Source: Methylophaga nitratireducenticrescens (lineage in GTDB: Bacteria > Pseudomonadota > Gammaproteobacteria > Nitrosococcales > Methylophagaceae). From it: 64,000 bases of DNA. A program made the translations under genes and the position numbers. The stretch is taken from the NCBI RefSeq assembly GCF_000260985.4, contig NC_017857.3, forward strand, positions 1-64,000. The letters are read 5' to 3'. Each line of letters opens with the position of its first letter. The first letter of the stretch is position 1. The notes under the pieces are model-generated. The model made no database searches. It was given only the letters and a program-made list of their open reading frames with translations, and was not told the DNA's origin. Positions 47,032 to 58,086 of the stretch are shown here, piece after piece.

Positions 47032-48015
47032 ATGAGCAGTCAAATCTCCGCCAACTGGACCAGTGTGAACGCCGCCAGTAAGCCACTGGTTGATAAATTA
47101 ATCGACAATGCTCAAGCCCTGCAATTGGAAATCAGTCATTTATCCAATGGCACACGGGTTGTTGATGCAGGTATTAAGGCCACCGGCGGTCTGGAAGCGG
47201 GTCGATTGATTGGTGAAATCTGCATGGGTGGACTGGGTACCGCAACGCTTGGCAGCACCAGCGGTTTTAGCGATTGGCCATGGTCAGTGTATGTTCATGC
47301 AAAAACGCCGGTATTAAGTTGTCTTGGCAGTCAATATGCAGGCTGGAGTCTTTCCCATAAAAGTGAAGATGTGAAATTTTTTGCCCTGGGCTCCGGGCCA
47401 GGTCGTGCACTTGCTGCGCGGGAAGAATTATTCAAGGAATTTGGCTATCAGGATAAAGCAGATTCAACGGTTATTGTGTTGGAAGTGGACAGCATGCCCC
47501 CCGTCGAAATCGCCGATAAAGTTGCTGATAACTGTGGTATCAAACCTGAAAACCTGACGTTAATTCTGACGCCAACCACCAGTCTGGCGGGGGTAATGCA
47601 AATTGCTATTCGTGTACTGGAAGTGGCCATGCATAAAGCCCATACCCTGCACTTCCCGATGGATAAAATTGTCGATGGTTTTGGTACCACGCCTGTGGCA
47701 CCACCCGGTGGTGATTTTATGACCGGCATGGGCCGCACTAATGACGCTATTCTGTATGGCGGTACCGTGCATCTTTTCGTGGACAGTACCAATGATGAAG
47801 CACAAGAACTTGCCGAGAAAATGCCCAGTAATACATCGTCTGATTATGGCCGCCCGTTCGGTCAGATTTTCAAATCTTACGAATATGACTTTTTTAAAAT
47901 AGATCCCATGCTGTTCAGTCCGGCCAAAGTCATTATCACCAGCACCCAAACCGGGAAAAGCTTCACTGCAGGCGAATTGAATGCCGACTTATTGAAACAG
48001 TCTTTCGGACTGTAA
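47032..48015 (+). CDS. mch: Methenyl-tetrahydromethanopterin cyclohydrolase Mch
   Basis: Mch hydrolyses methenyl-H4MPT to formyl-H4MPT in the H4MPT-linked formaldehyde oxidation pathway. The 327-residue protein has the family pattern VVDAGIKATGGLEAGRLIGEICMGGLG, a GTTPVAPPGGDFMTGMGRTNDAILYGG segment and a C-terminal KSYEYDFFKIDP. An AGGATC ribosome-binding site precedes the ATG. It is first gene of the C1 cluster, as in Methylobacterium where mch is followed by orf5, orf7 and fae. Confidence 0.97.
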   Translation: MSSQISANWTSVNAASKPLVDKLIDNAQALQLEISHLSNGTRVVDAGIKATGGLEAGRLIGEICMGGLGTATLGSTSGFSDWPWSVYVHAKTPVLSCLGSQYAGWSLSHKSEDVKFFALGSGPGRALAAREELFKEFGYQDKADSTVIVLEVDSMPPVEIADKVADNCGIKPENLTLILTPTTSLAGVMQIAIRVLEVAMHKAHTLHFPMDKIVDGFGTTPVAPPGGDFMTGMGRTNDAILYGGTVHLFVDSTNDEAQELAEKMPSNTSSDYGRPFGQIFKSYEYDFFKIDPMLFSPAKVIITSTQTGKSFTAGELNADLLKQSFGL

Positions 48016-48024
48016 TGATTGACT

Positions 48025-48951
48025 ATGTCTAACGCCCGCGTTGTTGTTTTTAATGATACCCACGGGTGGCATAGTGCTCAGCTGACTGAAGCACTGGCTG
48101 ACTTAAATATTGAAACGGTGCTTATCGATCTGGCGGAATGCCGGATCGATACCCGCAGTCCAACAGGCATGGTGATTCCGCAGTTTGAAGCGACATTGCC
48201 TGATGCCGTGCTGGTCAGAGGCATCGCTCCCGGTAGCCTCGAACAAATCACCTTACGCATGGACGTATTGCATACCTTTGCCGAATTAGGTGTGCCGGTT
48301 TTGAATCCCGCCCATGCTATTGAACTCACCGTCGATAAAGCGCGAACGTCATTAAGACTTCATCTGGCGAATATCCCTTCGCCACAGACCTGGGCTTGCG
48401 AAAGCCGCGATCAGGCGTTGCAAATTGCCCGCGAAGAATTCGCCAAAGGATTCAGCCTGGTCGTTAAACCATTATTTGGTTGTCAGGGGAAGGGCATTCA
48501 ACGGCTTGATGAGTTAGCACAACTGGATAACCTCTCAGTGGTTGGTGAGGCTTATTATCTTCAGCATTATGTGGCGCCAGCTGAAACCGGTTGCTGGCAG
48601 GACTGGCGCTTGATGGTGGTCAATGGTGAAGTCATTGCCGCCATGACACGTCGCTCGAATCACTGGATAACCAACTTTGCTCAAGGTGCCAGCTGTTTTG
48701 CCAGTACCGTGACTCATGAAATGGCACAACTTGCGATCAGAGCGACGGCTGCGGTGGAAGCACCTTATGCCGGCGTCGATCTGATTCAGGATCCGCAAGG
48801 CCAGTTCAGTGTATTGGAAGTTAATAGCGTACCCGCCTGGAAAGGCTTATATCAGGCAACAGGTATTGATATTGCTGCTCGACTTGCAGCAATGGTTGCT
48901 TCTCATATTCAGCAAACCAGACAGGTATCTTTCCCCGAACATGCTAGCTGA
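48025..48951 (+). CDS. RimK-like ATP-grasp ligase of the H4MPT cluster (orf5 type)
   Basis: This 308-residue ATP-grasp protein has FSLVVKPLFGCQGKGIQRL (ATP lysine and glycine loop), DWRLMVVNGEVIAAMTRRSNHWITN and a C-terminal VLEVNSVPAWKGL metal-binding motif. It resembles MptN-type H4MPT glutamate ligases and orf5 of the Methylobacterium mch cluster. It probably adds an amino acid to a pterin-type cofactor, but the exact substrate is not shown here. ATG 48025 is preferred to a TTG at 48019. It overlaps the next gene by 11 bases. Confidence 0.88.
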   Translation: MSNARVVVFNDTHGWHSAQLTEALADLNIETVLIDLAECRIDTRSPTGMVIPQFEATLPDAVLVRGIAPGSLEQITLRMDVLHTFAELGVPVLNPAHAIELTVDKARTSLRLHLANIPSPQTWACESRDQALQIAREEFAKGFSLVVKPLFGCQGKGIQRLDELAQLDNLSVVGEAYYLQHYVAPAETGCWQDWRLMVVNGEVIAAMTRRSNHWITNFAQGASCFASTVTHEMAQLAIRATAAVEAPYAGVDLIQDPQGQFSVLEVNSVPAWKGLYQATGIDIAARLAAMVASHIQQTRQVSFPEHAS

Positions 48952-49819
48952 ACAACAGATTGCTGACAGTGTCCGTTGGGCCTGTGAGCAGGAAGTCAAC
49001 GCTCCAAAACCCGGTAATGTAAATGTCTGGAGTGACGGACATAATATGGCAGTACAGGACTTTCTCTCCAGCGCTGCAGCAATTGCGCCGGTAATGGCGC
49101 AACCCAATCTAAAGGTTGGCGAACGGATTTTGCAGTCCATTGAAGCTACCCGTAAGGTCGTCAACTGTAATACCAACCTTGGTATCGTATTATTATTTGC
49201 CCCATTATGTGATGCAATTCAGCGATGTTCCAGCTTTGATCAACTATCTTCAGAGCTTGAAAAAACCCTAACAGCTTTAACCATTGAAGATGCCCGACTG
49301 TGTTATGAAGCTATTCGGTTGGCAGATGCGGGAGGGTTGGGACATCAAGCAGAACAAGACGTCCACCAACAACCAAACGTCACCCTGAAACAAGCGATGG
49401 CTTTAGCGCAGAATCGGGACACGATTGCTCTGCAATATGTAAATAATTACCAGCAAGTATGGGAAATCGGCTATAAACAATTGACAGAAGCGCTGAAATG
49501 TGGGGAAAAGGTTGAATGGGCAAGCACAATCGCGTATCTTTATCTACTATCACGTGTGCCGGACACTTTAATTGTCAGAAAGCAATCCCGGCATATCGCC
49601 CAGACCGTGGCACAAAAGGCACAGTTATTTATTTTAGAAATGAATAAAAATAGACCCTTAAGCAAATCAACAGCTGAGCTGACCGTCTGGGATCACGAAT
49701 TAAAGAGTCATGCCATAAATCCCGGAACCTCCGCAGATATGACTGCAGCAGCATTGCTGCTATTTGCGTTTGAGCAGGCGTTTGATTCTAACCGAATTTC
49801 AGTAGCACGATGCTTATAG
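48941..49819 (+). CDS. CitG/MdcB-like protein of the H4MPT cluster (orf7 type)
   Basis: This 292-residue protein resembles triphosphoribosyl-dephospho-CoA synthase. Seen are SVRWACEQEVNAPKPGNVNVW, NTNLGIVLLFAPL, ADAGGLGH and a C-terminal INPGTSADMTAAALLLF. In methylotrophs this gene (orf7) always sits with H4MPT genes, where a role in cofactor synthesis is presumed but unproven. The true start is the ATG at 48941 inside the end of the preceding gene; the longer frame is out of homology. Confidence 0.85.
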   Translation: MLAEQQIADSVRWACEQEVNAPKPGNVNVWSDGHNMAVQDFLSSAAAIAPVMAQPNLKVGERILQSIEATRKVVNCNTNLGIVLLFAPLCDAIQRCSSFDQLSSELEKTLTALTIEDARLCYEAIRLADAGGLGHQAEQDVHQQPNVTLKQAMALAQNRDTIALQYVNNYQQVWEIGYKQLTEALKCGEKVEWASTIAYLYLLSRVPDTLIVRKQSRHIAQTVAQKAQLFILEMNKNRPLSKSTAELTVWDHELKSHAINPGTSADMTAAALLLFAFEQAFDSNRISVARCL

Positions 49820-49895
49820 CGGGCGGCACTGAGCAGGTGATACGTTCCTTTATTACGTATAAACCTCAATCTCATATAAAAAGGTTGAGGAAAAA

Positions 49896-50456
49896 ATGAG
49901 CCTTTTTGACAATTTTTTTGGAACAGGAAAATATAACATGCCAGTTATCGATCGCGTACTTGTAGGTGAATCTTTAGTCATTGAAGATGGAGACTTAGAC
50001 AACGTTGCTCACATCGACTTATTAATGGGCCCACGTGGTTCAGCAGCAGAAGATGCTTTCTGCCGCACTATGACCGACCAGAAACAAGGTGTTAACGGCC
50101 TGTTGGCTGTGGTTGCACCTAACCTGATGGTCAAACCAGCTACCGTTATGTTCAACAAAGTAACCATCAAAAACATGAAACAAGCTGTGCAAATGTTTGG
50201 TCCTGCACAACGTGGTGTTTCTGTTGCGGTTGCTGAGTGTGTTGAAGATGGCACTATCCCTCTCAGTGAAGCTGATGATTGCTTCATTTGCGTTGGTGTA
50301 TTTATCTCACCAACTGCTGACAGTGATGAAAAAATCCAGGACTGGAACTACCGTGCAACTAAAGAAGCTATCAAACGTGCAGTAGCTCGTGAGCCTAAAG
50401 CGGCTGACGTTGTTGCACAATACAAAGCTTCTGAACACCCATTTGGTGCTAAGTAA
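49896..50456 (+). CDS. fae: Formaldehyde-activating enzyme Fae
   Basis: Fae condenses formaldehyde with H4MPT to methylene-H4MPT and is a marker of H4MPT-dependent methylotrophy. The 186-residue protein contains VAHIDLLMGPRGSAAEDAFC (with the catalytic His), LLAVVAPNLMVKPATVMFNKVT and AVQMFGPAQRGVSVAVA. A GAGG site lies about five bases before the ATG at 49896. A second ATG at 49938 (MPVIDRVLVGESL), with AGGA upstream, matches the usual N-terminus and would remove 14 residues. Confidence 0.97.
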   Translation: MSLFDNFFGTGKYNMPVIDRVLVGESLVIEDGDLDNVAHIDLLMGPRGSAAEDAFCRTMTDQKQGVNGLLAVVAPNLMVKPATVMFNKVTIKNMKQAVQMFGPAQRGVSVAVAECVEDGTIPLSEADDCFICVGVFISPTADSDEKIQDWNYRATKEAIKRAVAREPKAADVVAQYKASEHPFGAK

Positions 50457-50472
50457 GTTTTAGACTGATGTA

Positions 50473-50497
50473 AATGCCGCCCTTCGGGGCGGCATTT
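50473..50497. terminator. Bidirectional terminator between fae and the HisA-like gene
   Basis: A perfect 9-bp stem, ATGCCGCCC (50474-50482) with GGGCGGCAT (50487-50495), closes on a stable TTCG tetraloop and has A on the left and T on the right. It can end both the fae transcript and the opposite-strand HisA-like transcript. Confidence 0.88.
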
Positions 50498-51193
50498 TCA
50501 GTTCATTATCTGGCGTATTGTATCGACGCCAAGTCTGCCTTTGTGCAAAGCACTGGCAATCAAAGCCCCTTTGATTTGTTTTTTTGCCAAATGCATTAAA
50601 TCTTCTTTCCCACGCACACCTCCCGCCGCAATTAACTGTGCATCAGGCTTAATCATTTGAATTTTATTCAGTAACTTTTCATCTGGCCCCGTATCCATCC
50701 CCACCGTATCCAGACTCATCACAATGATAGTGTCAGGCCATAAATCTACCCGCGTTAACAAATCATATTGCCCCAATAACCGCCCCTGCCGAAAATCCAG
50801 AGATAATATAAATTCCGTGGGTTGCAGCGTGGTTAACAATTGAAGATTCTGCAGAGTCTCACTCCCCAATACCGGCGTAATATTTGGGATATCACTCCAG
50901 AACTGCCAGTCATTCAGAGTACGGATGCCCGCATCCAGCCAAATGGTTAATTGTGGAAATAGCTGGTGCAGTTGCAAATAAAACGCTTTATCGATTTTTC
51001 CAATTTCGATTGCATCCAGATCCGCAATATAAATATCAGTGAACGGATACCATTTCAGTAACTGTTTAATCACCGCATTTGGATAGACACTGGAGGTTAA
51101 TTGCGATTTAAGTAGCTGATATTGATCACGCCTTCCACCTTGTGCATGAACGACCTTCCCCCCCATCAGATCAATGACCGGTATAATCAACAC
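50498..51193 (-). CDS. HisA/HisF-related TIM-barrel protein of the C1 cluster
   Basis: This 231-residue protein matches the hisA/hisF-related family seen in methanogens and methylotrophs (TIGR00734 type). It keeps the two HisA catalytic-type aspartates: Asp8 in PVIDLMGGKVVHA and Asp133 in LSLDFRQGRLL. It also keeps both phosphate-binding loops (AAGGVRG near 189-195 and GALIASALHKG near 209-219). The fold and residues suggest an active enzyme on a phosphorylated sugar-like substrate, which is not known. It is on the opposite strand to its neighbours, 22 bases from the next start. True HisA is usually in a his operon, which is absent here. Confidence 0.88.
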   Translation of the reverse strand: MLIIPVIDLMGGKVVHAQGGRRDQYQLLKSQLTSSVYPNAVIKQLLKWYPFTDIYIADLDAIEIGKIDKAFYLQLHQLFPQLTIWLDAGIRTLNDWQFWSDIPNITPVLGSETLQNLQLLTTLQPTEFILSLDFRQGRLLGQYDLLTRVDLWPDTIIVMSLDTVGMDTGPDEKLLNKIQMIKPDAQLIAAGGVRGKEDLMHLAKKQIKGALIASALHKGRLGVDTIRQIMN

Positions 51194-51215: not shown

Positions 51216-52211
51216 ATGAACTTAGTCGTCTACGAGCATATCACCAGTGGCGCATTGTGTGACGAGCAGTTACCCGCATCGCTCTCACATGAAGGCGAAA
51301 TGATGCTTTCTGCCATTGTGCAGGATCTTCTCCGGCTGGGTCAGATTCATATCACTATCCTTAGAGATAAGCGACTGAGTGAGTCCGACTGGATGCAGAC
51401 CTCCAACATCACGATAAAACCTTGTGCCAGTCGCCAGGAATTTGATCAAAATTGGCAGTATTGTTTAAAAAACCTTTCGTTTTTTTTACTGATTGCTCCC
51501 GAAACCGATAATATTTTATTGTCCCTGCAACAGCAGGTTATCGCTGCGAACAATCTCTATCTAGGGTGTTCAATTGAGGCAACCAGCTTTTGTACGGACA
51601 AATTTCAATGTTCTGAGCAACTGCTAAATAAAGGCATTGCTACGCCAGTGACTTTTTCAGCTGCCGATGGTTTATTAGACCAGTGCCTGCTCGACCAGCC
51701 TTATGTCGTCAAACCCCAGGATGGCGCGGGTTGTCTTGATACACTCAAATTTGATTCGATCCAACAAACTCGTCAATACCTGATAAGTCTGCCTAAAAAG
51801 GCACGAGACAAACTGATTGTGCAACCCTACCTTGATGGCCCGGCATTGAGTGTTAGTTTGTATGTGGAACAAAATAACATTGAGTTGCTGTCAATTAATC
51901 AGCAATTAATCGAACAACAGGCACAACAATTTGTCTTTCATGGGTGTCAGGTAAACACTATTGTGACAAAGAAATTTACTGACCAGCAGGCAACGCAGCT
52001 TGCCAATTTGATTGATCGGGCGATTGCAGGATTATCTGGCTATGTTGGTATCGATTTTATATTAACTAAGCAAGGGCCGGTGGTGGTAGATATCAACCCC
52101 CGATTGACTACAGCCTATGTCAACCTGGCAACAAATAAACAGCGCAACCCTGCCCTGCCGTTATGGCAGCATCTACAACGTTTGCAGCAACAAGAAGCAT
52201 ATTATGCATAG
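51216..52211 (+). CDS. ATP-grasp ligase, MfnD-like (orf17 type)
   Basis: This 331-residue ATP-grasp protein starts MNLVVYEHITSGALCDEQLP, a methylotroph/methanogen family signature. It has VKPQDGAGCLDT (ATP-binding lysine and loop) and a C-terminal VDINPRLTTAYVNLA metal site. Homologues are tyramine-glutamate ligase MfnD of methanogens and orf17 of Methylobacterium, needed for H4MPT-linked C1 transfer. Start 51216 gives the conserved N-terminus; the frame is open 42 bases further up, overlapping the opposite gene. It overlaps the next gene by 8 bases. Confidence 0.88.
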   Translation: MNLVVYEHITSGALCDEQLPASLSHEGEMMLSAIVQDLLRLGQIHITILRDKRLSESDWMQTSNITIKPCASRQEFDQNWQYCLKNLSFFLLIAPETDNILLSLQQQVIAANNLYLGCSIEATSFCTDKFQCSEQLLNKGIATPVTFSAADGLLDQCLLDQPYVVKPQDGAGCLDTLKFDSIQQTRQYLISLPKKARDKLIVQPYLDGPALSVSLYVEQNNIELLSINQQLIEQQAQQFVFHGCQVNTIVTKKFTDQQATQLANLIDRAIAGLSGYVGIDFILTKQGPVVVDINPRLTTAYVNLATNKQRNPALPLWQHLQRLQQQEAYYA

Positions 52212-53247
52212 ACAAGAAAAAGGCTGTTTCACCGGCTGGGATATTGGTGGAGCACACTTAAAAGTAGTTCGCTGTAATAATCAAGGCGAACTGTTACAGG
52301 CGCTTGAACTGCCCTGCCCACTTTGGCGGGGCAAAGAAGCGCTGCGCAAGGCTATTCGTCTGGTAGTTGATACATTGAACAATGAATTGGATCAACAACT
52401 AGTCACCATGACCGGAGAACTGGCAGATTGCTTTGTTGACAGAGCTTCCGGTGTATCAGAAATTCTGGCCTGTATAGCTGAATATTTTCCAACTGATCGG
52501 GTTTCGGTATTCAGCAGGGATGGCTGGTTAAGTCAGGAAGAAGCCCGTACTCACTGGGATAAAGTGGCTTCGATGAATTGGCTGGCCAGTGCTCAGTTAG
52601 CCGCTACAAATTATCCAGCAGGACTGTTGGTTGATTGTGGAAGCACAACCACCGACATTATTACGCTTAATCAATCTCAGCCACAACTAACCGCATATGA
52701 TGATCAAGGCCGGCTAAAAAGTGGTGAGTTACTGTATACCGGTGTTATCCGTACCCCGTTGATGGCTGTGGGGCAGAAGCTGCCGTTTCGTGGACAGTGG
52801 CAGACCATCACGGCTGAATTATTTGCCACCACTGGGGATTGCTGGCGGCTGCTGGATAAAATCAGTGCTACACAAATTAATGATAACAGTGCTGATGGCA
52901 ATGATTGGCAAACCGAAAACTGTCAACGCAGATTGGCTCGAATGCTGGGAACCGATGCCAATTTGTTTACAGCAGAAGACTGGCAGAATGTCGCAATATG
53001 GTTTTCTGAACAGCAAATCCAGCAGATTCATAATGCCTGCTTACAGGTATTATCCGCTCATAGTGATCTTGATAAACAAGCACCGGTGATTGGCGCAGGT
53101 GCTGGACGATTTATCGTCAGCCAGATTGCTGAGCGTTTACAGCGTCCATACGTTGATTTTGATAGCCTGCTTGACTCACATGAAACCGCTGCGACATACG
53201 CCCCAGCCAGCGCACTCGCCCTTCTAGCCCAGAGGCAGTTCACGTAA
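52204..53247 (+). CDS. H4MPT-linked C1 pathway protein, MfnF-like (hydantoinase/ASKHA type)
   Basis: This 347-residue protein belongs to the hydantoinase/oxoprolinase-like group named H4MPT-linked C1 transfer pathway protein (TIGR03123 type). Phosphate-binding motifs GWDIGGAHLKVV and LLVDCGSTTTDIITL, and GAGAGRFIVSQI, show the ASKHA fold. From memory, a methanogen relative is MfnF, which couples the furan and tyramine parts of methanofuran. Start 52204 (MHRQEKGCF) is inside the end of the preceding gene. The mapping to MfnF needs a search. Confidence 0.85.
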   Translation: MHRQEKGCFTGWDIGGAHLKVVRCNNQGELLQALELPCPLWRGKEALRKAIRLVVDTLNNELDQQLVTMTGELADCFVDRASGVSEILACIAEYFPTDRVSVFSRDGWLSQEEARTHWDKVASMNWLASAQLAATNYPAGLLVDCGSTTTDIITLNQSQPQLTAYDDQGRLKSGELLYTGVIRTPLMAVGQKLPFRGQWQTITAELFATTGDCWRLLDKISATQINDNSADGNDWQTENCQRRLARMLGTDANLFTAEDWQNVAIWFSEQQIQQIHNACLQVLSAHSDLDKQAPVIGAGAGRFIVSQIAERLQRPYVDFDSLLDSHETAATYAPASALALLAQRQFT

Positions 53248-53256
53248 AATACTGTG

Positions 53257-54642
53257 ATGAATTCTCAATTGCCGCCTTTACGTGCCGAGCTTCCCTATCA
53301 AATAGACAGTGCCACACTGTTTGCTGCTATTCGTGATTTGCCGTGGGCAGTTTTCCTGGATAGTGCCATTACCGAAGGCGATAATGCCCGCTTCGATATC
53401 ATCGCGGCAGATCCTTTTATTACCCTGCAAACCACCGGTCAAACAACCACTATTGATTATCGCACTGCAGATAGCCTGAATTCGGCGGATGATCCCTTTT
53501 TGTTGTTGCAGACTGTGCTGAAAAAATATGCTCAGCAGTCAACCGAACTGCCCTTCTGTGGTGGCGCTATCGGTTATTTCAGTTACGATCTGGGCCGCAG
53601 AATTGAAAGCCTGCCAAGTCTGGCGGTAGATTCGGAACAAATACCGGAAATGGCTGTTGGCATTTATGACTGGGCGGTCATTAGTGATCATCAGCAACAA
53701 CGCTGCTGGTTAGTCAGTTATGGCGTTGACCCAGCCACGCACCAGAACTGGTCGGATTTAATCAATCGATTGCAACGGCCACAAACAACTGATTCAACTA
53801 CCTTTAAGGTGAATGGCGAATTACGTTGCAATATGGATCAACAAGCCTATCAAACAGCCTTTGAAAAAATAAAAAACTACATTACTGATGGGGACTGTTA
53901 CCAGGTCAATCTGGCCAAGCGTTACGAAGTAAATGCTGAAGGTGATCCCTGGATTGCCTATCAGCAGTTACGAAAGCAGAATGCCGCGCCTTTTTCAGCC
54001 TTTTTAAACACGCCCCAGGCAGCAGTGTTAAGTTCATCACCGGAACGGTTATTACGGGTTAAAAACAAGCTGGTGGAAACCAAACCCATCAAAGGTACCC
54101 GACCACGAGATTTGCACAATGCAGAGCGCGATCGTTTGCTCGCTCGACAGTTACAGGACAGCCTCAAGGATCGTGCTGAAAATGTGATGATTGTTGATTT
54201 GCTGCGCAATGATCTGGGCAAAGTCTGCACACCGGGTTCCATATCCGTGCCCTCTCCTTTTGCACTCGAGTCTTTTGCTACCGTACATCACCTGGTCAGC
54301 ACCATCACTGGGACACTGGCTGAAGATCAGGATGCTGTCAGCTTATTAAGAGCCTGTTTTCCGGGGGGATCCATTACCGGTGCACCCAAACTACGATCGA
54401 TGGAAATCATCGAAGAACTCGAACCGCAACGCCGTGGTGTCTATTGTGGCAGCATTGCTTTTATTGGCTTTGACGGCAATATGGACAGTAATATTACGAT
54501 TCGGACATTGGTATTCAGTGATAATCGCCTGCGTTTCTGGGCCGGTGGCGGCATTGTGGCGGATTCCGAACTCGAAGCCGAATATCAGGAAGTGGCTGAT
54601 AAAGCCGCGGCAATGCTGGGCCTGGTGGAGTCATTACGTTAA
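53257..54642 (+). CDS. pabB: Aminodeoxychorismate synthase component I PabB
   Basis: PabB makes 4-amino-4-deoxychorismate, the precursor of p-aminobenzoate. The 461-residue protein has the chorismate-binding core: KPIKGTRPR (the PIKGT form is typical of PabB rather than TrpE), NVMIVDLLRNDLGKV, and CFPGGSITGAPKLRSMEIIEELEPQRRG. The ATG at 53257 is preferred to the GTG at 53254. Placement among cofactor genes makes sense because H4MPT is built on p-aminobenzoate. The next gene starts one base after its stop codon. Confidence 0.94.
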   Translation: MNSQLPPLRAELPYQIDSATLFAAIRDLPWAVFLDSAITEGDNARFDIIAADPFITLQTTGQTTTIDYRTADSLNSADDPFLLLQTVLKKYAQQSTELPFCGGAIGYFSYDLGRRIESLPSLAVDSEQIPEMAVGIYDWAVISDHQQQRCWLVSYGVDPATHQNWSDLINRLQRPQTTDSTTFKVNGELRCNMDQQAYQTAFEKIKNYITDGDCYQVNLAKRYEVNAEGDPWIAYQQLRKQNAAPFSAFLNTPQAAVLSSSPERLLRVKNKLVETKPIKGTRPRDLHNAERDRLLARQLQDSLKDRAENVMIVDLLRNDLGKVCTPGSISVPSPFALESFATVHHLVSTITGTLAEDQDAVSLLRACFPGGSITGAPKLRSMEIIEELEPQRRGVYCGSIAFIGFDGNMDSNITIRTLVFSDNRLRFWAGGGIVADSELEAEYQEVADKAAAMLGLVESLR

Positions 54643-55218
54643 ATGCATATCGTTAAACTGGGTGGCAGCCTTTATCACACTGCTGAACTCAAATCCTGGT
54701 TAACATTGCTGGAACAGACGGCGCTTAATGAGTGTGTGGTAATTGTTCCGGGCGGTGGTCCTTTTGCTGACATGGTGCGTCAGGCGCAGCAACTGCATAA
54801 ATTTGATGATCAACATGCTCACCATATGGCGATCCTTGCCATGGCACAATATGGGTTGATGCTGCAGGCCTTGTTACCCTCCGCTGTCCTTGTAAAAACA
54901 CCAGCAGAAGTTTCCAGCCATTGCCAACTGTCTATCTGGTTTCCAGATGATCAATTACTGCAAGTCACAGAAATTACCCAAAACTGGCAGATCACTTCCG
55001 ACAGTCTGGCATTATGGTTTGCACAGCAATTTGCACAAAGCCGCTTGAGTCTAATCAAATGTGTTTCCGCAGAGAGTGGAGATCTCAACGAGTTAAGTAA
55101 AAAGGGCATTATTGATCAGGGTTTTACTGCACTGTTCCGACAAAGACCCATTTCAACTCAAATGATCCATTATCAAGCCCCGGATAACTTTCCTGAGCAT
55201 GGAATTAAGCTCGGATGA
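54643..55218 (+). CDS. Amino-acid-kinase family protein, MfnE-like
   Basis: This 191-residue small AAK-fold protein has a glycine loop HIVKLGGSLY at the N-terminus and IVPGGGPFADMV near residue 34. It is much shorter than aspartate or glutamate kinases and similar in size to the archaeal-type kinase that phosphorylates the aminomethylfuran phosphate precursor of methanofuran (MfnE). ATG directly follows the pabB stop (TAAATG), and it overlaps the next gene by ATGA. Context in the C1 cluster supports a cofactor role; substrate specificity is an inference. Confidence 0.8.
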   Translation: MHIVKLGGSLYHTAELKSWLTLLEQTALNECVVIVPGGGPFADMVRQAQQLHKFDDQHAHHMAILAMAQYGLMLQALLPSAVLVKTPAEVSSHCQLSIWFPDDQLLQVTEITQNWQITSDSLALWFAQQFAQSRLSLIKCVSAESGDLNELSKKGIIDQGFTALFRQRPISTQMIHYQAPDNFPEHGIKLG

Positions 55219-56396
55219 GCATTAGTTCAAATCAACTATCTACCACGCTGTCAGCGTTAATTAATCAGTCTCTGCAACAATTCGACATCAACGCTAAAAC
55301 GCTTCAACAACTTTCCCAACAGATTGATACCTTACTCCTTGCAGGACAGCGTCACAGACATGCAAACTGGGCAGGCCATATGACGCCTGCAGTAAATGAA
55401 TTAGCCGCACTGGGACAGCTTGTGGCGGCTTTGCACCAAGGCAATTTGCTCTCATCGGAGCTTTATCCAGAACTTGCAATCGTTGAGAAAGATATCTTTG
55501 ATTTTTTCTGCCCTTTATTTGGTCAACAACACGGGCATGCGACACATGGTGGCAGCTATGGCAACCTTGATGCATTATGGCAGGCTCGAAAAAAATTCGG
55601 TGGTTATTCAAACCGGGTATATGCCAGCGATCAATCGCACTATTCCGTTTTCAAGGCATGTGACATTCTGGGTCTGGAATTACAATTGATACCCACCAAT
55701 AATTCCCAGCAGATGGATATTGCAGCACTTGCGTTTGCCTGTAACGAGCAGACTCCAATGGCCATTGTTGCCACAGCAGGCACCACCAGTAGCGGACAGA
55801 TCGATGATATCAATGCGGTTAAAGCGATCATTGAGCATAGTCCGTGTTGGCTGCATATCGATGCAGCCTGGGGTGGTTTTTTAAGTTTGATCAACACCAG
55901 TCCACTGACGGACAAACAGTTTGGACAAGCAGATTCGGTCTGTTTTGATCCGCACAAAAGTCTGGGTCAGCCCCGTCCCTGCGGGTTATTGATGTATCAG
56001 CAACCAATCAAAGCCGCAGCCTCGCCAACCCAATACCTGACACAAACACCACGTGACACATTACCGGGTTCCTATGGAGCAGAACTGTTACTGCCTTTAT
56101 GGCTGACCATCAAAACACTTGGAAAAACAGGCCTTGTCGATCAAATCGACTTTCAACTCGACCAGGCCAGAAAATTTGCCGGTTTTCTCAATGAGCAGCC
56201 AGGTTGGCAGGCAGAAGTTTCTCCCACTGGCATTGTCTGTTTTAATTCACCACCACAAACAGACCTTTCCGATTTGCTGGAAAAAGGTATTTTTTCACTT
56301 ACGGAACTTGCTGGAAAGAAAGTCTATCGGGCAGTCTTTGCCGGACCTAGCACCCGCAGTGACACACTGATTAGCGATCTGGCGCCTTATCTATAA
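55215..56396 (+). CDS. PLP-dependent group II decarboxylase, MfnA-like
   Basis: This 393-residue PLP enzyme has the group II decarboxylase core: GGSYGNLDALWQAR, the ring-stacking His142, TAGTTSSGQIDDI, HIDAAWGG with the PLP aspartate Asp216, and Lys248 in DPHKSLGQP. Its size and motifs fit the tyrosine/aspartate decarboxylase MfnA of methanogens. Tyrosine decarboxylation would supply tyramine for a methanofuran-type carrier. Aspartate decarboxylation to beta-alanine is an alternative. It is last gene of the cluster, and its stop overlaps damX by 26 bases on the other strand. Confidence 0.82.
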   Translation: MSISSNQLSTTLSALINQSLQQFDINAKTLQQLSQQIDTLLLAGQRHRHANWAGHMTPAVNELAALGQLVAALHQGNLLSSELYPELAIVEKDIFDFFCPLFGQQHGHATHGGSYGNLDALWQARKKFGGYSNRVYASDQSHYSVFKACDILGLELQLIPTNNSQQMDIAALAFACNEQTPMAIVATAGTTSSGQIDDINAVKAIIEHSPCWLHIDAAWGGFLSLINTSPLTDKQFGQADSVCFDPHKSLGQPRPCGLLMYQQPIKAAASPTQYLTQTPRDTLPGSYGAELLLPLWLTIKTLGKTGLVDQIDFQLDQARKFAGFLNEQPGWQAEVSPTGIVCFNSPPQTDLSDLLEKGIFSLTELAGKKVYRAVFAGPSTRSDTLISDLAPYL

Positions 56397-58086
56397 TTTG
56401 TTTTTGAACACCGTCATAACGTCTTAGCCAGGGCGATATTTTATTCAACGGAGAGGACCATTGCTGACTGTCACGCATTGCTACCTGTTTTGAAGGATAT
56501 ACTCCGTAGATCACGGCATACCAGACTTCACCATTACGCAGACTTTCAAAAACCGCGACATTACCTGTCAGTTCATTTTTTTCCACAAAGCTGTCCACTT
56601 CGGCCCGATCCCATGTACCCATTAATTGAAAGGTAAAATCGGTGGCAGATTGCTGCATAATCCACTCTTTATCCTTTAGAGTCGTATCAACCAGATCAGA
56701 AAATGCTGTATCAGCTTTCTCCGTGTCGGTAGCGGGTTCGGGAATTAATTCGACTGGAGGGTTAATTTGTTCAGGCGGTGAAGGTGGCTCAACCTCTTGT
56801 TCATCTGCTGTTTCAGAAGTCACTTTTTCTGTTTCAGAACTTACATCATCATTCACCGTGTCAACGTCAGCAATAGATTCCTCTGAATCAGCAGTCTGCG
56901 ATGGTTGTTCAATTATTTCTACGGGATCGATTACAACTTCTGCAGTGACTTCCTGTTCAGGTTCTTCTTCATTTGCTGGGGTAATGGTTTCGATTGCTGG
57001 TTCAACATCAGAGTCAGTCGTCGGTTCAGCTTCTACATCTGCCTGCTCCAACTCTTCGAGCAGCTCGACTAATTCCTGGCGATCGGCTTCTGCAACACTG
57101 GTAAGTTCTTCTGGTTCATCCACAACGACCATCGGCAAGTTTTCGTTTAAAACATCCGTGTTTAGCACATCGTCTTCAATAGTGTTTTTATCAGCAACAA
57201 ACAAGTCATTTATCTGCTGCTGGTAAAACAGAATCAATGCAAATAAAACACCCAGAGGAACCAGTCCAAACCATTTATTCCAGCGCAAAGAAACAGCAGG
57301 AAACTTGAAGCTGAAAGGCAACTGCACCGGTTTCCCCTGTCCCAGTAAAAATTTATGGGCAAGGTGATTCAATGCTGCCGGTACACCTGAAGACTGTCGA
57401 TGAAAACGTATTAATGCTTTGTCATCAAAGGGGCTGTCACCGTTGAAACCAACACCCTGTAACCGCTGCAATAAATAAGCAGCGGTTTCCTGCTGTGGAA
57501 TAGGCCCCAGCAGTAAGGGTTGAATACGCTCATTTTGAGTAGCCATGGCATCAGCCGTAACATCGGTTACTACCGCCCGCCATAGATAGTTGCCTTCATG
57601 TTGCCAGTCAAACCAGGCTTTTAATTGCTGGAGTAATGGTTCAGCAAGCTTACTGATATCATCAATCAGTAGCACAGGACGAATCTGCAAAGTCTGGAGT
57701 TGCTGTAATCGCTGTTGTAATAGCTGCAGGTTGTTACTGCCCAGCGTACTTTCCTGAGGCGCACCAAAAACCTGCAAACAGCGGCTGACTATAAACTGAA
57801 TGGTCAACGAGGGTTCTGCCTGAATCAGGCAAAAACGCAGATCATCGCCACCCCGATTCATTAAGGCTTTTAAAGTAGTGGTTTTACCCAGACCGTGGTT
57901 GCCATACAGCAAAGGAATTTTGTCACTGGCTCGCAACAGATGCAGAACCAAATCCAGACGCTGCTTAATTTCCGGCCCCATATACAGTCCGGCTTCTGTC
58001 ACCTCTGCACTGAAGGGATTCGACTGAAGCGCTAATCTCGAAATATATTTTGGTTCAGCTGCCGCTGCAGTCATTGCATTACTCAA
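56371..58086 (-). CDS. damX: DamX-like AAA/SPOR-domain protein
   Basis: This 571-residue cell-division-related protein has an N-terminal ATPase domain with Walker [10 protein letters not shown] and Walker B LLIDDIS. One membrane helix near residue 275-290 and a long acidic Glu/Thr/Val-rich linker follow. The C-terminal SPOR domain ([36 protein letters not shown]) is predicted to bind denuded peptidoglycan at the septum. Placement after aroK-aroB matches E. coli damX, although the AAA domain is not seen in E. coli DamX. It overlaps aroB by four bases. Confidence 0.88.

Follow-up and report, generated by a model that had tools for sequence, protein, structure and literature searches.

The closest described counterparts of the system treated here are the bacterial methylofuran (MYFR) pathways of Hemmann et al. 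(2021; PMC8141765). In that work tyramine-type MYFR was found by liquid chromatography–mass spectrometry in six of nine bacterial strains and tyrosine-type MYFR in two, and BLAST detected MfnA homologues in three of the six tyramine strains, further tyrosine decarboxylases being proposed (PMC8141765). The systems described there resemble that of Methylophaga in comprising Orf17, which is required for MYFR in M. extorquens, an MfnD homologue, Orf9/MfnF, Orf21/MfnE and a proposed PF00282 step from tyrosine to tyramine; unlike the decarboxylase gene of Methylophaga, which lies at the mfnE end of the cluster, Mfla_2033 adjoins the mxa cluster (PMC8141765). Here, we describe a cluster of tetrahydromethanopterin (H4MPT) and MYFR genes in Methylophaga nitratireducenticrescens and the pyridoxal phosphate (PLP)-dependent decarboxylase encoded at its end, within a stretch of 64,000 nucleotides (contig NC_017857.3, positions 1 to 64,000; hereafter the window) from a genome of 3.135 Mb in one contig.

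As judged from sequence comparison, the decarboxylase is likely to convert free tyrosine to tyramine for a tyramine-type MYFR, and would be a non-MfnA member of PF00282 that was added behind mfnE in Methylophagaceae. A preliminary description of the locus had suggested a tyramine-based carrier, noting that the carrier of Methylobacterium contains tyrosine, a point which PMC8141765 confirms. Tyramine-type MYFR stands as the likeliest product because the decarboxylase gene is linked to mfnE and mch, because its product is the sole PF00282 protein of the genome, because panD is present and because the rest of the pathway is present. Such a carrier is not new for bacteria, having already been published for the six strains above; the new element is a decarboxylase from another branch that is locked to the cluster across the family. 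Methylophaga is not mentioned in the main text of PMC8141765, and no publication on the decarboxylase in the Methylophaga cluster was found in a search that lay largely outside the subscription literature. The word 'decarboxylase' is absent from the accessible text of an article on Methylophaga thiooxydans that names H4MPT genes (PMC6548844) and from that of an opinion article of 2016 (PMC5020050).

The decarboxylase is demonstrably linked to the MYFR genes and is co-inherited with the cluster. A scan of genome_contigs with two peptide patterns, which covered one genome per species for 84,980 species and may miss divergent copies, matched 76 stretches, 43 of which encode a relative of the decarboxylase; the labels on these 43 loci are all Methylophaga, Piscirickettsiaceae, Gammaproteobacteria or Pseudomonadota. 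The mfnE gene directly precedes the decarboxylase in all 43, in agreement with the earlier view that the gene is locked into the MYFR operon. In 36 of these loci the decarboxylase could use a start codon at −4, and the remaining seven start at −16 to +132. Among 57 genomes of the family, searched with a decarboxylase threshold of E up to 1e-15, 51 hold both mch and the decarboxylase, one holds mch only, two hold the decarboxylase only and three hold neither (G003, 100% complete; G006, 86%; G042, 68%). The contig bearing mch in the mch-only genome breaks off inside pabB, and completeness is 73% and 82% for the pair with the decarboxylase only. Where both genes are present they share a contig in 44 genomes, with their starts 8.1–14.4 kb apart, and lie on separate contigs in seven. 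Across the 32 of the 43 loci with all six genes, the distances between decarboxylases correlate with those of their neighbours (Mantel r of 0.83 for MfnF, 0.83 for MfnD, 0.76 for PabB, 0.70 for Mch and 0.70 for MfnE, with 0 of 2000 permutations as high for each gene), a co-variation that would arise from common descent alone. In one family genome (L024, G004:C15:12316-13395) an in-frame TAA interrupts the decarboxylase, through either decay or sequencing error.

The other family of the order is represented by six genomes, of which two carry mch. Both hold the cluster through mfnE, and the decarboxylase has no match genome-wide in either (254 and 603 bases were fetched past mfnE). Most simply, the decarboxylase was gained in the ancestor of Methylophagaceae, with loss elsewhere as the alternative; a different PF00282 member would then have been appended behind mfnE and inherited with the cluster.

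The decarboxylase belongs to a block at 51216–56396, the second half of a longer H4MPT/MYFR cluster of the usual bacterial kind that runs from mch at 47032 on and comprises the following genes.

47032..48015, + strand: mch, methenyl-H4MPT cyclohydrolase, the upstream end of the cluster (TIGR03120, 420 bits, cut-off 228.8; PF02289)
48025..48951, + strand: RimK-type ATP-grasp ligase in the Orf5/MyfB place, for the MYFR polyglutamate chain (NF040720 MptN, 217.1 bits, cut-off 350 missed; TIGR00768, 174.3 bits, cut-off 143.4)
48941..49819, + strand: CitG-like protein in what we take to be the Orf7 place (PF01874, 239.7 bits, scanned from 48947)
49896..50456, + strand: fae, formaldehyde-activating enzyme (TIGR03126, 210.4 bits, cut-off 118.05)
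50498..51193, − strand: Orf17, HisA/HisF-like (TIGR00734, 103.5 bits, cut-off 179.85 missed; PF00977)
51216..52211, + strand: MfnD-type ATP-grasp ligase, candidate tyramine–glutamate ligase (NF040722, 120.9 bits, cut-off 400 missed, the top score in its own genome)
52204..53247, + strand: mfnF/orf9, whose product presumably couples the glutamyl-tyramine or glutamyl-tyrosine part with the furan (TIGR03123, 339.4 bits, cut-off 244.1, scanned from 52207; start ATG at 52204)
53257..54642, + strand: pabB, aminodeoxychorismate synthase component I, for the p-aminobenzoate of H4MPT (TIGR00553, 384 bits, cut-off 328.4; alternative start GTG at 53254)
54643..55218, + strand: mfnE-like kinase gene, orf21 (NF040622, 69.6 bits, cut-off 300 missed; position)
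55215..56396, + strand: PLP-dependent decarboxylase, proposed as a dedicated MYFR tyrosine decarboxylase and not an MfnA orthologue (PF00282, 115.4 bits, gathering cut-off 27; trees, topology tests and synteny)

For the ligase at 48025 the profile scan began at 48028, and the ATG at 48025 was taken as the start, with the TTG at 48019 as an alternative; MyfB is 33% identical to MptN (PMC8141765). Orf17 is divergent within the part of the cluster at 47032–51193. The tight packing of the five genes from 51216 on, as given in the preliminary description, was confirmed in its coordinates, overlaps and abutment: mfnD and mfnF overlap by 8 nucleotides (nt), a gap of 9 nt separates mfnF from pabB, the mfnE-like gene abuts pabB exactly (54642/54643), and the decarboxylase gene overlaps mfnE by 4 nt in a shared ATGA and is probably translationally coupled to it. 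The 3′ end of the block is convergent with a minus-strand open reading frame at 56371–58086, with an overlap of 26 nt. The packing of the block is not due to chance, as the order of mfnE and decarboxylase is kept across loci.

The decarboxylase is the only PF00282 match in its own genome, by a search that found the family in eight of 14 control genomes. It falls below every equivalog cut-off, with 122.7 of 305 bits for histidine decarboxylase (NF002748), 112.6 of 299.4 bits for MfnA (TIGR03812) and 105.6 of 606.1 bits for PanP (TIGR03799), and these cut-offs are also missed by six of its relatives, which score 88.2 to 119.5 bits with the MfnA model. The closest named records are from Methylophaga sp. 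EAC20 (94% identity), UBA2689 (93%) and M. muralis (70%). Archaeal MfnA from M. jannaschii (3f9t) is similar in its PF00282 fold, in its length (396 amino acids, against 393 here) and in the aligned His, Asp, Lys, Tyr and Arg residues, whereas the sequence identity is 22.8% over 294 amino acids. Among solved chains, the top profile scores belong to 8zpi (deposited as EctB; 186.7 bits), 4rit (from Sphaerobacter thermophilus; 173.2 bits) and 4obu (R. gnavus tryptophan decarboxylase; 160.7 bits), which are also among the nearest by fold, with 24–28% identity over the fold alignment, and 3f9t ranks 30th of 51 chains with 102.2 bits, near plant tyrosine decarboxylases.

A first tree of 69 rows (L148 and L149 omitted, L054 not included) unites 20 Methylophagaceae proteins in a single clade (100/99) that does not include M. 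jannaschii MfnA. A clade uniting the Methylophagaceae proteins with MfnA is rejected by the approximately unbiased (AU) test in this tree (p 0.00185) and in a second tree of 55 rows (p 0.00262), which contains six further MfnA-similar proteins and omits near-duplicates and 11 of the 20 family rows; a clade with MfnA, those six and two more proteins gives p 0.0218. Both trees hold a single archaeal MfnA, that of M. jannaschii, on a long branch. By score and by tree the decarboxylase is thus rejected as an orthologue of MfnA, and the earlier label 'MfnA-like' fails in its archaeal sense. The enzyme looks like a product of separate recruitment, from another PF00282 branch than that of archaeal MfnA.

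Other substrates than tyrosine would also suit some of the observations. A clade with PanP-type proteins stays unrejected by the AU test (p 0.117), and 6jy1 and further entries name M. jannaschii MfnA itself an L-tyrosine/L-aspartate decarboxylase; the histidine decarboxylase model gives the top score of all, and the near chains include diaminobutyrate-related and tryptophan decarboxylase entries. The first two results, with the PanP model score, speak for an aspartate 1-decarboxylase of PanP type that would supply β-alanine for coenzyme A and merely be located in a one-carbon cluster. PanP lies in the same broad bacterial PF00282 branch in the trees and also has H-M near residue 55; however, it groups with the Methylophagaceae proteins in neither tree, and its cut-off is missed by far. 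PanP substitutes for a missing PanD, and panD is present in the genome of the window (PF02261, 161.9 bits, C1:2336579-2336920), as well as in 60 of the 63 genomes of the order (missing from G033, G045 and G061), so that a β-alanine role of the decarboxylase would be redundant. All three family genomes that lack both mch and the decarboxylase retain panD; the decarboxylase therefore tracks the one-carbon pathway and not pantothenate. The active site may also speak against aspartate. The Arg of the G-[ST]-R motif, which is present in the MfnA, PanP, histidine decarboxylase and 4rit alignment rows, is absent from 34 of 44 sequences of the present type, comprising the window and the 43 named loci (Tyr 23, Arg 10, His 4, Gln 3, Phe 2 and Asn 2 at this position), and Glu290, which follows the motif position, is present in 43 of the 44, so that an acidic side chain would probably suit the decarboxylase poorly. 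Aspartate decarboxylation, formerly named as the main alternative, is thus weakened by panD and appears improbable, and the unrejected PanP grouping speaks for it.

The remaining two results, on the histidine decarboxylase model and the near chains, would suit the formation of another amine (histamine, phenethylamine, diaminopropane or a similar compound) that serves either another core or some unrelated purpose. The histidine decarboxylase cut-off of 305 bits is missed, however, and grouping with the histidine decarboxylase-type proteins is borderline in the AU test (p 0.054, unrejected at 0.05). Together with the strict linkage to MYFR genes, this makes another amine very improbable, and tyrosine is retained as the preferred substrate.

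His142, Asp216, Lys248, Tyr274 and Arg372 are invariant in all 44 aligned sequences, the first three as had been read from the gene of the window itself. By analogy with the group II decarboxylases, we take Lys248 to be the PLP lysine, His142 the ring histidine and Tyr274 the loop tyrosine, and the role of Asp216 is assumed likewise. Arg372 aligns with Arg371 of MfnA, the residue mutated by the depositors of 6m4y, and Tyr274 aligns with Tyr333 of 4rit, the residue mutated in 4riz and 4rj0. Aldehyde synthases carry Phe where decarboxylases carry the loop Tyr, and Tyr274 accordingly speaks for a putative decarboxylase over an aldehyde synthase. Fold comparison of the AlphaFold model of the decarboxylase (predicted local distance difference test score of 87.9) gives decarboxylases of tryptophan, glutamate, cysteine sulfinate and tyrosine, along with MfnA, within about two Z units (38.4 to 36.3, root-mean-square deviations of 3.4–5.0), and does not distinguish between substrates.

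The placing of these residues also bears on whether the substrate is free. Within the same pathway, and by the same operon logic, the enzyme could decarboxylate the tyrosine of γ-glutamyl-tyrosine or of the finished MYFR core. To our knowledge, however, PF00282 enzymes act on free amino acids, and Arg372 and the catalytic residues occupy the same positions as in decarboxylases of this kind. The order of the bacterial steps is left open in PMC8141765, where tyrosine or tyramine may first be coupled to the furan, which would allow a bound substrate, whereas MfnD takes only tyramine in vitro (section 5 of the same article), which counts against it. We hold a bound substrate to be as improbable as aspartate.

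With free tyrosine as the preferred substrate, a scheme can be proposed that follows the pathway put forward in PMC8141765. The decarboxylase would form tyramine, to be linked with glutamate by the MfnD-type ligase encoded at 51216; MfnB, a transaminase (MfnC) and MfnE would provide the aminomethylfuran, which MfnF would attach; and ATP-grasp ligases of the OrfY/MyfA and MyfB types would add the polyglutamate tail, giving a tyramine-type MYFR bound by Fhc. The genes of this scheme other than mfnC were located in the genome of the window, and the MfnC transaminase of bacteria is still without an assigned gene according to PMC8141765. The mfnB gene lies at C1:327586 (PF04476, 245.2 bits, cut-off 22.4; NCBIfam models under cut-off, the best at 269 of 297 bits), and an fhcB-A-D-C operon lies near 296–301 kb with all four parts above their NCBIfam cut-offs, as are MfnF/Orf9, Fae and Mch. 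The names MfnD and MfnE, whose equivalog cut-offs are missed, rest on family and position.

A second MfnD-related ATP-grasp gene is found at 622.5–623.6 kb of the same contig (G000:C1:615000-631000; L205:7504-11477). Its neighbours encode two distinct Mpt_N methylene-H4MPT dehydrogenases and a GHMP-family protein, the last of which presumably resembles β-RFAP synthase. The ATP-grasp proteins of 38 MfnF loci outside the family split into two groups: the window type lies by mfnF in 33 of the 38, and the 622-kb type lies upstream of mch, with at least 90 bits, in at least 22 of the 38, some stretches of which end early. On this comparison we assign the gene at 51216 to the MfnD type and the one at 622 kb to the OrfY/MyfA type; in M. 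extorquens, OrfY is encoded near mtdB and mch. An assignment of the 51216 gene to OrfY/MyfA, from its adjacency to orf17, was dropped, since the comparison puts it with the MfnD type by mfnF. The genome also encodes a second FhcA (G000:C1:1724311-1725909; L233:4306-5949), 50% identical to that of the fhcBADC operon and preceded by a CobW/COG0523-like GTPase gene and two unassigned open reading frames of about 470 amino acids; it may be a spare copy for metal limitation.

Outside the family, a class sample of 369 genomes contained 46 with MfnF at 197 bits or more, 42 of which do not belong to Methylophagaceae. The window-type decarboxylase was found in none of these 42 (best match 86.8 bits); a PF00282 protein above the cut-off is present in 16 and absent from 26. 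The 38 loci mentioned above derive from these 42 genomes (G192, G315, G347 and G411 were omitted, and a number of the loci are short or truncated), and in only one (L108, G301:C1:56000-75900) does a protein match the window enzyme or M. jannaschii MfnA, at 65–70 bits; it is a PF00282 protein of another branch, about 7 kb beyond mfnE. No replacement gene downstream of mfnE is common to more than seven loci among the 32 of 38 in which mfnE was found, two of which have fewer than 600 bases left, by a comparison without family models that a decarboxylase of another fold could escape. Among ten PF00282 proteins scanned from genomes outside the family, one reaches the glutamate decarboxylase cut-off, one the PanP cut-off and eight none. 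A PanP above the curated cut-off (L145, G258:C2:320405-321469; 619.3 against 606.1 bits) occurs in a MYFR genome of another family, two further members of which have close relatives of it. The nearest protein to the window type outside Methylophagaceae is from G278 (35% identity, 131.6 bits), which is absent from the MfnF genomes; the genes around it are uninformative. Among 398 genomes of the phylum no true MfnA was found, the protein most similar to that of M. jannaschii having 116.4 bits and 28% identity, and the plasmid records that match the window enzyme (376) or MfnA (393) are all below 60% identity, the best rows being below 30%. Three MYFR clusters (L114, L116 and L121, from G181, G152 and G273) have no MfnD-type gene between orf17 and orf9 and are candidates for tyrosine-type MYFR, by the logic of PMC8141765.

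In conclusion, we lean slightly towards the view that the step from tyrosine to tyramine was invented more than once, with Methylophagaceae having recruited another PF00282 branch, used only for MYFR, coupled to mfnE and with an active site reshaped through the loss of the motif Arg in most copies and the gain of Glu290. Three of the six proven tyramine strains lack an MfnA homologue (PMC8141765), and a cluster-locked decarboxylase other than MfnA is a candidate of the missing kind; those three strains are not thereby explained, since searches beyond Methylophagaceae did not find the window type. Such a decarboxylase also predicts the carrier type for a whole family of methylotrophs and suggests that an archaeal-like core may be reached with non-orthologous parts.

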